This document shows positions 48,254-51,541 of a DNA stretch of 64,000 bases, in pieces (the stretch's first letter is position 1; each line of letters opens with the position of its first letter). Both the position numbers and the translations under genes were made by a program. Under the pieces are notes generated by a model. It ran no database searches. It worked only from the letters and a program-made list of their open reading frames with translations, and had not been told where the DNA came from. The stretch covers positions 62,001 to 126,000 of the forward strand of contig NZ_BSDE01000003.1 of assembly GCF_030268085.1 (NCBI RefSeq), written 5' to 3'. The stretch is from Geothrix limicola (GTDB lineage: Bacteria > Acidobacteriota > Holophagae > Holophagales > Holophagaceae).

Positions 48254-49579
<1,326 letters not shown>

Positions 49580-49607
49580 TTAGCCAGGTTGTGCAGGCTC
49601 GAAGGGC

Positions 49608-50087
49608 CTACTTCTTGGCGGCCTTCTTCGGCGCGGCCTTCTTCACGACCTTCTTGGCAGCCGGCTTCTTGGCAGCGGCCTTCTTCGGCGCGGCCTTCTT
49701 CACGGCCTTCTTCACGACCTTCTTGGCGGCCGGCTTCTTGGCGGCGGCCTTCTTCGGCGCGGCCTTCTTCACGGCGGCCTTCTTCGGCGCGGCCTTCTTG
49801 GCAGCGGCCTTCTTCGGCGCGGCCTTCTTGGCAGCGGCCTTCTTCGGCGCGGCCTTCTTGGCGGCGGCCTTCTTCGGCGCGGCCTTCTTCACGGCAGCCT
49901 TCTTCACCGCGGCCTTCTTCGGAGCGGCCTTCTTGGCGGCCGGCTTCTTGGCGGCGGCCTTCTTCGGCGCGGCCTTCTTGGCAGCCGGCTTCTTGGCGGC
50001 GGCCTTCTTCTTGGGGGCGGCCTTCTTCGCCGGCTTCTTAGCGGCGACGGGCTCAGTGGTGGCGACCGGGTTGGTCATTTCAGCCAT
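49608..50087 (-). CDS. histone-H1-like DNA-binding protein from internal in-frame start
   Basis: A proposed 159-residue product starting MAEMTNPVATTEPVAAKKPA, from AAAGGAG followed by six bases and ATG. Almost all the rest is Lys, Ala and Pro in PAKKAAPKKA-like units, as in bacterial H1/HctB-like and AlgP-type nucleoid proteins. It would bind DNA by charge. Whether it is made alone, only as the tail of the longer protein, or both, cannot be told from sequence; the ribosome site argues for separate production. Confidence 0.68.
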   Translation of the reverse strand: MAEMTNPVATTEPVAAKKPAKKAAPKKKAAAKKPAAKKAAPKKAAAKKPAAKKAAPKKAAVKKAAVKKAAPKKAAAKKAAPKKAAAKKAAPKKAAAKKAAPKKAAVKKAAPKKAAAKKPAAKKVVKKAVKKAAPKKAAAKKPAAKKVVKKAAPKKAAKK

Positions 50088-51056
50088 GGGTGGCTCCTTT
50101 ACGCCCTTTTGGGCGGGGTTGGAAGGGGTCGTGCGTGAAGATGGCTTGCCTGTAGCAACTTTCGCGCCAGGATGGACCGAACCTTCACGCTGGGTGGATA
50201 TGCGTTCCTTGGCCGCAGAAGCAGCCGTGGGGGCTAGCGCCGCGTCGGCGGCAGAGCCGGTCTTGCCCTTGGGCTTCGCGGCTTTTTTCGGGGGCTCCAC
50301 GCCGGCCAGAATCTGGGCCAGGCGCTTGCCGGGATAGTAATCATCGAGGAGGGCGTCGCCGATCACCAGGCCGTGGACGCCGAGGGCCTCCATCTGCTTG
50401 ATCTGCTCCAACCGGTGGATGCCGCCTTCGACGAGTTTGAGACAGCTCTTGGGGACCTTCTTAACGAGGGCCACGGCCTGATCCCAGGAGGCTTCCCAGG
50501 TATCGAGGTTCCGACCCACGGCGCAGATGATGTCCGCCCCGGCCTCCATCGCCCGCTGCAGCTCCGCTTCCGACGTGACTTCCACGACCACGTCGAGGCC
50601 CTTGCTGGTGGCGAATTTCAGGAGGGCCTGAAGCCGGTCCTGCGTCAGCAGGGCGGGCATCAGGAAGATGGCGTCGGCGCCGAGGATCTTGCTCTCCTCG
50701 ACCTGGTATTCCTCGAAGATGAACTCGCGCCTCACTAACGGGAGCTTCACCTGACTCCGCACTTCGGAGAGGTGCTTGTCCTCGCCGAAATAAAGGAACT
50801 TGTCCGTGGCGATCGACAGGGCGCGGGCGCCGTTTTCGGCCAGGCTTTTGGCATGCGTGGAGGCCTTGTAGGACTCCCGGACCTGCCCACGGCCGGGGTC
50901 GCCCCCGGCAACTTCACCCAAGATCGTGATTCCAGGCTGGCTGAGCTCTTCTTTCAGCGAGTGATGCCCCTTGTAGGCATCTTTTACCGCCACAGGGCCC
51001 CTCTGCTTCTTGATTTCAACATCCAGGGCCTTGAAGATGGCGACTTTCTTTAGCAT
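49608..51056 (-). CDS. TrpC-like barrel fused to histone-H1-like Lys/Ala-rich tail
   Basis: A single 482-residue frame with no stop. Residues about 40-255 form a TrpC (indole-3-glycerol phosphate synthase)-like beta/alpha barrel (LVRREFIFEEYQVEESKILG, DVVVEVTSEAELQRAM, GVHGLVIGDALL). Catalytic positions are altered: the family EIKxxSP reads GEVAGGDP, RKDFI reads RREFI, NNRNL reads VGRNL and SESGI reads VEGGI. Residues 256-323 are a disordered linker, and 340-482 are KKAAPKKAAAKK-type repeats. A strong internal ribosome site and ATG at 50087 would give the tail separately. ATG 51056 has GGAGAG upstream. Enzymatic activity is doubtful. Confidence 0.85.
   Translation of the reverse strand: MLKKVAIFKALDVEIKKQRGPVAVKDAYKGHHSLKEELSQPGITILGEVAGGDPGRGQVRESYKASTHAKSLAENGARALSIATDKFLYFGEDKHLSEVRSQVKLPLVRREFIFEEYQVEESKILGADAIFLMPALLTQDRLQALLKFATSKGLDVVVEVTSEAELQRAMEAGADIICAVGRNLDTWEASWDQAVALVKKVPKSCLKLVEGGIHRLEQIKQMEALGVHGLVIGDALLDDYYPGKRLAQILAGVEPPKKAAKPKGKTGSAADAALAPTAASAAKERISTQREGSVHPGAKVATGKPSSRTTPSNPAQKGVKEPPMAEMTNPVATTEPVAAKKPAKKAAPKKKAAAKKPAAKKAAPKKAAAKKPAAKKAAPKKAAVKKAAVKKAAPKKAAAKKAAPKKAAAKKAAPKKAAAKKAAPKKAAVKKAAPKKAAAKKPAAKKVVKKAVKKAAPKKAAAKKPAAKKVVKKAAPKKAAKK
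49620..50045. repeat. coding tandem repeats in the Lys/Ala-rich tail
   Basis: Plus-strand GGCGGCCTTCTTCGGCGC-type units of about 30 bp recur many times with small changes, giving an internally repetitive stretch that could expand or contract by slippage or recombination. Confidence 0.85.
50088..50100 (-). promoter_or_regulatory. internal ribosome binding site AAAGGAG
   Basis: On the minus strand AAAGGAG ends six bases before the ATG at 50087, one of the best ribosome sites in the window, and lies inside an open reading frame (codons for V-K-E-P-P). Confidence 0.75.
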
Positions 51057-51541
51057 TTCCCACTCTCCAAATCTCAGATACCTCGCTGCTGGCCCTATGG
51101 GGAAGATGATCGGTCGTTTTTCCTCTGATTCAACATGAAACCAGCGATCTGGATGAGGTCAACAGAGAAATCCAAAAAATCTTCATTTTTTTTGACGCTA
51201 CCTGTCCATCATCGCACCATTCGTTTCCGCGTTCACAGACCCGATTTCTGACCTTCAAGCTTCGGAGTTCGCGCTCACGGCTCGATGAGACACGACTCTT
51301 TCAATGAGTTCGCATCGTGCGAAGGCGCTGTACCAGCGCGTTTGCTCAAGTCGATATGTTTTCTCGACACGATCCCATGCGCTTGCGATTCGATTCGGTA
51401 TTCACGTCGAGGCCACCCACTCCCGGTCCCCTTCGTGCCGCTTTCCCGCCCCTGCGCCTGCTAGGCTTCTTCTCGCGCCTTCCGCCCTTGGCGCCGTGCG
51501 AGCGGTACCTCGGAACCCAACCACACCCTCGAGAGGCCCCC
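51057..51541. other. divergent intergenic region, locally AT-rich
   Basis: This 485-bp gap between the TrpC/H1-like gene (minus) and upp (plus) holds both promoters. The part at 51165-51200 is unusually AT-rich and contains a small A/T hairpin (CAAAAAAT, loop CTTC, ATTTTTTTTG). On the minus strand a TTGACC box lies nearby, but no good -10 is at the right distance. No gene is supported here. Confidence 0.55.

Follow-up and report, generated by a model that had tools for sequence, protein, structure and literature searches.

A TrpC-derived barrel fused to a histone H1-like tail in the Holophagaceae: probably one gene with two products from the same frame

Within the 64,000-nucleotide stretch of Geothrix limicola DNA that we analysed (the window), a single reading frame leads from a barrel that resembles TrpC into a lysine- and alanine-rich tail that resembles histone H1, and a ribosome-binding site stands where the tail begins. 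This raises the question of whether the gene encodes one protein or two. Our reading, to which we give a probability of about three in four, is that one Holophagaceae gene would supply, from the same frame, a pseudo-TrpC tethered to the nucleoid and, separately, a free H1-like protein. Sequence comparison establishes that barrel and tail are fused, that the linker is open, that the signal for the internal start is conserved, and that the catalytic residues are replaced; we regard the fusion as real and old in the family, and the gene as probably a dual-product one.

The initial annotation had described one continuous frame running from the barrel through a linker into a Lys/Ala tail, with a strong AAAGGAG site and an ATG where the tail begins (50087). 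Both descriptions hold, as the 482-residue frame is unbroken along 51056-49608 of the minus strand in the ORF translation, with Pfam matches to IGPS and HC2, and AAGGAG lies at 50099-50094. The sequence GTAAAGGAGCCACCC precedes the tail-initial ATG (50087). The features of the locus are as follows.

51066..51069, minus strand: GGAG ahead of the long-form ATG (51056).
49608..51056, minus strand: full fused ORF of 482 aa (stop included in the coordinates), consisting of the pseudo-TrpC barrel, the linker, and the H1-like tail.
50304..51056, minus strand: TrpC-like TIM barrel, aa 1-251, assigned by Pfam, residue comparison, and AlphaFold2 with Foldseek.
50088..50303, minus strand: linker, aa 252-323 (72 residues).
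50088..50129, minus strand: the 14 codons (42-base block) ahead of the internal ATG, with no within-genus same-amino-acid codon difference.
50121..50124, minus strand: UUCC, which could pair with the GGAG of the internal Shine-Dalgarno sequence; a possible masking strand, suggestive only.
50103..50114, minus strand: GCCC-AAAA-GGGC, a small hairpin 3 nt ahead of AAGGAG.
50094..50099, minus strand: internal Shine-Dalgarno sequence AAGGAG (AAAGGAG when 50100 is counted).
50087-50085, minus strand: internal ATG, at a spacing of 6 nt from AAGGAG.
49608..50087, minus strand: nested short ORF, a predicted 159-aa H1/HC2-like Lys/Ala protein.
48254..49534, minus strand: enolase gene (eno), directly downstream of the fusion.

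The barrel is found throughout the family. A search at E <= 1e-40 matched 62 of the 77 Holophagaceae genomes and all 11 of the 11 genera, with full-length matches 64-96% identical; two of the 62 (G098 and G083) match only in part, through a fragment or a split barrel. Named records with the gene include Geothrix species (G. fermentans, G. rubra, and G. terrae among them) and MAGs labelled Holophagaceae, Geothrix, or Acidobacteria. Among genomes of the class outside the family, 7 of 16 gave matches at E <= 1e-20, on a par with ordinary TrpCs, and the five of these that were fetched all keep the TrpC catalytic residues. A pattern scan of contig records, with patterns that reach close relatives only, returned 41 Holophagaceae-type loci and three weak ones from Actinomycetospora.

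The analysis took in 66 loci, and 63 of them cross the junction between barrel and tail; those left out are L071 and L074, whose contigs end inside the barrel, and L083, whose contig starts in the tail. Counts given over 61 loci exclude L051 and L052, and tests on 59 sequences exclude L060 and L082, in which the barrel start is broken or missing. Two genomes (G016 and G032) contribute two junction loci each and near-copies are included; the loci share ancestry, and the counts are not independent. In all 63 junction loci the barrel reads into the tail in the same frame, the tail of L066 containing a run of N. The barrel of L060, from a MAG (G083), is seemingly split by a frameshift near residues 64-77, through draft error or decay.

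We also looked for eno in the 15 genomes where the barrel search found nothing at E <= 1e-40 and in G098, which has a fragment, and found it in 11 of these 16. In five genomes lacking a barrel match (G013, G066, G068, G084, and G085) the distance from eno to a contig end is 173-388 bases, and the missing barrels there look like breaks at the repetitive tail. The barrel is absent from the eight contigs of G013, and its contig C7 begins inside the tail. Gene loss was accordingly set aside for the genomes in which eno lies less than 400 bases from a contig end.

The neighbourhood of the gene was compared across 41 named-record loci from four genera, and the order fusion-eno-ftsB-dapF-parA-parB was found in 23 of the 27 that reach parB; in this comparison ftsB was not detected in three loci of genus g16, nor dapF in L123. 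Six of the eight single-contig genomes (G020, G033, G065, G070, G088, and G089) carry the fusion approximately 65-116 kb from a contig end, as would be expected near an origin with parAB if the contigs begin at dnaA, while G074 and G093 differ. The gap between the fusion and eno (49535-49607, minus strand) contains a perfect 13-bp hairpin with the stem TCAGAGAGGCGCG. Roughly 13 bases separate its end from the eno start, no T-run follows it, and it gave no Rfam match. A perfect stem of at least 9 bp occurs in this gap in 27 of 32 complete Geothrix loci, nearly always as a variant of the TCAGAGAGGCGCG stem with matched changes (AGAGAGG, AGAGGGG); in other genera it occurs in 2 of 13 complete loci, with unrelated stems.

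To what extent does the barrel remain a TrpC? Its residues 10-239 match the Pfam IGPS family (PF00218) at 167 bits against a cut-off of 27, and a Pfam search of the whole fusion gave IGPS, HC2, and a sub-threshold QRPTase_C match only, with no phasin or AlgP-type N-terminal domain. Against the NCBIfam TrpC models, whose cut-offs are at least 258 bits, it scores at most 179 and falls under every TrpC cut-off listed. The AlphaFold2 model of the barrel has a mean pLDDT of 78, with residues 1-31 and 85-92 unreliable, and Foldseek matched it to IGPS structures and to designed enzymes of that fold at TM scores of 0.7-0.76, with an rmsd of about 11-12 in most rows and of 2.8-3.4 in two.

The residues at the active site tell a different story from the fold. 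At K53, K110, N180, and S211 (S. solfataricus numbering), which we take to be the catalytic residues of IGPS, the barrel in the window has A, R, V, and G, and all four are replaced in each of the 61 full barrels (K53 by A/S, K110 by R/H/Q, N180 by V/L, and S211 by G/A/C). All four are kept in 21 of 21 ordinary TrpCs that we fetched, a subset of the search matches made up of 11 from the family (L002 among them) and 5 each from the class and the phylum; 19 of these are in the residue alignment, and the other two (L159 and L163) were read from their proteins and stand outside the tree. In that tree the 16 barrels included form one clade with a support of 100/100 on a long stem, and the nearest TrpC (L149) joins on long branches, leaving the attachment of the barrels among TrpCs unsure. 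An intact TrpC that keeps the catalytic residues (L002) is encoded elsewhere in the same genome, at G000:C1:955414-956097. It is 25% identical to the barrel, and its open frame extends upstream to 548 residues. By its sequence, then, the barrel is not a working TrpC. It shares its fold and Pfam family with IGPS/TrpC, but differs in the four replaced residues, in its scores below the NCBIfam cut-offs, and in the H1-like tail fused to it. The label TrpC-like, used when the locus was first annotated, should not be taken to mean a functioning TrpC.

It is possible, though on the doubtful side, that the barrel retains enzymatic activity of an altered kind and that the tail does no more than localise it. 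Purifying selection on the barrel is consistent with such an activity (within-genus dN/dS of 0.06-0.07), as is the invariance of E48, R182, E210, G233, and D234 in 61/61 barrels and of E159 in 59/61. However, every residue of the known chemistry listed above is gone from all 61, and no relative outside the family hints at another reaction, either in the class search, where matches were at TrpC level, or in the pattern scan, which reaches close relatives.

The tail is the part of the protein that would contact DNA. The 159 aa that follow the internal ATG match Pfam HC2 (PF07382) at 40.7 bits against a cut-off of 40, a marginal match that is to be read with the caveat that KA-rich sequence is of low complexity. 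The short form would be 38% lysine, with a net charge of +59 over its 159 aa. It resembles HC2 and Burkholderia-type H1-like proteins in tail composition and through this weak profile match, but differs from them in scoring below both curated NCBIfam H1-like cut-offs (39.4 against 80 and 21.3 against 135) and in being nested inside another gene. In its own genome the fused tail is the sole HC2 match at E <= 0.01 (41.5 bits in the genome scan); the weaker KA-like matches elsewhere (26 and 40% identity) do not match HC2. This leaves the internal start as the one evident origin of a free HC2-type protein there. A search with PF07382 of 15 family genomes gave a match in 10, each at the fusion and in 7 over the cut-off, compared to none above and two below the cut-off in 14 control genomes; there was no match in the genomes searched from g16, which has a short tail, or g17, in which the tail has drifted.

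Tail length varies within the family. The three g16 loci (L048-L050) come from genomes of 0.9-1.2 Mb, far smaller than the others, and keep both the fusion and the internal start, although the short form there would be just 29-33 residues with 55% lysine. Two Geothrix loci (L006 and L020) have short forms of 66 and 75 residues, compared to 135-177 in the other complete Geothrix loci, and these short tails are possibly collapsed assembly repeats.

If the initial annotation was right, relatives should carry both the fusion and its internal site, and they do. The fusion was found in loci from all 11 genera, and AAGGAG-N6-ATG is kept in 61 of the 63 junction-spanning loci (10 genera). The remaining two belong to g17: L051 has AAGGAG-N6-GTG, and L052 has lost the internal site while its tail has drifted to DPTPVPDS repeats, so the short form appears to be dispensable there. 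These two loci, neither of whose genomes has an HC2 match, amount to a natural experiment on the need of the short form for an H1-like tail. No other A?AGGAG-N4-9-ATG occurs upstream of the internal ATG in any of the 61 coding sequences. The sequence GCCCNNAAGGGCNNNAAGGAG occurs exactly once in the 4.23-Mb genome, and allowing up to two mismatches it is found in 57 places, compared to 15 for a reversed control.

Duplex energies, calculated with an assumed anti-Shine-Dalgarno sequence, range from -7.9 to -8.5 kcal/mol for the internal site in 59/59 loci scored; of 917 start codons that lie in frame within the barrels, 3.3% have an equally strong site. We judge from these comparisons that AAGGAG-N6-ATG at the junction is not there by chance.

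Codon usage around the site points in the same direction. Over the nine codons before the ATG, the share of pairs with a synonymous difference is 0.000 for within-genus pairs against a gene mean of 0.303, and 0.082 for between-genus pairs against 0.506 (59 sequences). The lowest three of 290 between-genus windows are the final three of this stretch, and within the genus the zero reaches back to codon -14. In a comparison of 87 close Geothrix pairs, pS falls from 0.306 in the barrel to 0.152 in the linker and to 0.000 in the last 14 codons. When all 741 genus pairs are taken, those 14 codons have a pS of 0.019, which arises from pathway counting across amino-acid changes, and the corresponding dN/dS of 3.7 is meaningless. 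Selection on the nucleotides around the internal start is well supported by these codon comparisons.

What this selection acts on may include more than the Shine-Dalgarno sequence. The small hairpin upstream of it has the form GCCC-NNNN-GGGC, and its pairs form in 99.4% of alignment cells and are nearly invariant, with a compensated change at one of four pairs in one sequence. Read by eye, the loop is AAAA, TTAA, or GAAC in Geothrix, and the hairpin is displaced by one base in g25. Synonymous recoding gave an equally stable hairpin in 4.5-35% of draws, which is not significant in most single genomes, and the junction stretch as a whole is no more stable than its recoded versions (25-78% were as stable). 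The stem in which UUCC would mask the Shine-Dalgarno sequence is 95.6% paired and a hairpin around the internal start codon 88.9% paired, both with no covariation, and the latter pairs in a shifted register in g22-g24 when read by eye. The junction gave no Rfam match to a known RNA family at E <= 1. We consider RNA structure at the junction suggestive; strong proof for the small hairpin was sought and not reached, given a single compensated pair and recoded versions that are often equally stable.

The 42-base block could instead, or in addition to binding ribosomes, be a DNA element such as an operator or a promoter for a short transcript, or a site of mRNA cleavage. GCCC-N4-GGGC is indeed palindromic, and the within-genus constraint begins about 30 nt upstream of AAGGAG. 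We nevertheless find this account unlikely, as no sigma-70-like promoter was found in 49450-51350 by a scan that covers the sigma-70 type, the loop is of the GNRA type in 8/10 genera (by eye), which suits RNA better than DNA, and the constant spacing to the ATG is what a ribosome-binding site would call for.

Another way to explain the site away is to suppose that only the long fused protein is made and that AAAGGAG-ATG arises incidentally, from conservation of a K-E...M peptide that the linker encodes. Both AAG and GAG are used often in this gene (0.695 of Lys and 0.594 of Glu codons), and AAGGAG is also present inside the barrel, for example in L051. What makes this improbable is that the silent positions are themselves under selection, with no within-genus difference over 14 codons and with mostly rare codons chosen next to the Shine-Dalgarno sequence: codon -5, which adjoins it, ends in A in 54 of 61 loci (GTA in 33, AAA in 14, GCA in 4, and GAA in 3), and in the rest of the gene the share among synonymous codons is 0.049 for GTA (Val), 0.067 for GCA (Ala), 0.305 for AAA (Lys), and 0.406 for GAA (Glu). 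Furthermore, the length of the linker, counted between GKR and the internal Met, ranges from 61 to 88 residues, yet the distance from AAGGAG to the ATG stays fixed.

The opposite simplification is that what the second half of the gene really produces is the short H1-like protein, with the fusion a harmless consequence of a lost stop codon and the long form minor. The relative strength of the two ribosome-binding sites would fit this, as the internal one is uniform and the stronger of the two in 45/59 loci, whereas the long-form site is variable, its genus means spanning -2.7 to -10.2 kcal/mol, and is the stronger one in g18, g20, and g22-g25 (14/59 loci). The linker argues otherwise. In the frame of the barrel it contains no stop codon in 61/61 loci from 10 genera, while the other two frames contain stops in 51/61 and 49/61. 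The probability that all linkers are open by chance is 4e-9, as the product of composition-shuffled probabilities for one locus per genus, a figure that ignores shared ancestry. The within-genus dN/dS of the linker is 0.39-0.43, again below 1, and in g17 the tail is still fused even though the internal start is GTG or gone. By these measures the fusion itself is under selection, and a lost stop has little to recommend it. Together, the open fused frame and the synonymous collapse before the ATG suggest that selection maintains the internal start as well as the fusion.

A sequencing or assembly artefact is practically negligible as an explanation: repetitive tails do break assemblies, as the eno genes near contig ends and the contig of G013 that starts in the tail illustrate, but the stop codon or separate genes in relatives that would have betrayed an artefact did not turn up (linkers open in 61/61, fusion in 11 genera, single-contig G020, G033, G065, G070, G088, G089, and others included), and fusion in loci of all 11 genera likewise excludes an artefact or a lost stop confined to one genome.

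We can now outline how a dual-product gene of this kind may work. Initiation at 51056 would yield the long protein, in which an IGPS-derived TIM barrel without its catalytic residues is followed by the linker and the Lys/Ala H1-like tail, and initiation at the ATG at 50087, from the conserved AAAGGAG behind the small hairpin, would yield the tail alone as a free nucleoid protein. Both proteins are presumably made. Judging by its composition, the tail probably binds DNA and, by analogy with PhaF and AlgP, may keep the barrel at the nucleoid as PhaF does with granules. The barrel may be a binding or adaptor module, and our guess is that it perhaps senses a phosphorylated ligand or holds a partner. 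The free tail could then compete with the long form on DNA, or dilute it. As to the earlier proposal of one gene with two products, the comparative evidence backs two products from one frame, while the barrel part needs amending, as it is not a working TrpC. A bolder version would make the long protein a nucleoid-tethered metabolite sensor, in which a phosphorylated metabolite would bind to the dead IGPS barrel and govern how the protein reshapes or reads chromatin, with a translational RNA element (the SD-masking pyrimidine strand, the GNRA hairpin, and the start-codon hairpin) setting the ratio of the long to the free H1-like form, all of it encoded alongside enolase and the ParAB segregation genes in one operon. 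We offer this version as speculation and think it rather unlikely to be correct in full.

Parts of this arrangement have precedents. In phage lambda, an enzyme-like N-terminal part (C) is fused in frame to a structural protein (Nu3), which an internal start also yields on its own; this pair serves phage head assembly, and we take it to be unrelated to the Holophagaceae fusion. The Pseudomonas phasin PhaF and AlgP each join an N-terminal domain to a Lys/Ala/Pro repeat tail that has been compared to histone H1 and binds DNA; according to the available text of the two reports, PhaF helps to place PHA granules and AlgP helps to space polyP granules, with the KA-rich tails needed (PMC3574117, PMC9239181). 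Where the Holophagaceae fusion has an IGPS barrel, PhaF has a PHA-binding phasin domain and AlgP a predicted helical domain, and the same text makes no mention of a free tail from an internal start (PMC3574117, PMC9239181). AerR (PMC6199135) and SpaO (PMC13059759) are each described, in the portions available, as yielding a long product and, through an internal start in the same frame, a shorter C-terminal one, and in each case both products matter. The internal start is CTG with two offset promoters in AerR and GTG for SpaO-short, compared to ATG in the Holophagaceae fusion; no histone-like tail is mentioned in those portions, and the likeness considered here is one of layout. The statement in the initial annotation that no system with this layout had been described was too broad, given these internal starts and KA tails. 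Dual-start genes and KA-tailed tethers are both known, and what is new is their combination, with an unexplained pseudo-enzyme at its core. We found no report of this combination, or of either protein, among the open-licence papers listed by our searches, as judged by titles and the beginnings of abstracts.

Annotated by its best profile match, this gene would probably be called TrpC and the second protein missed. As a family-wide gene with two apparently conserved outputs in one frame, it would provide a clean case for studying how bacteria balance two starts, and the key tests are ordinary ones because Geothrix isolates exist. The joining of a former enzyme of tryptophan biosynthesis to a chromatin-type tail may also give a direct handle on whether a metabolite-binding fold can act on the nucleoid.
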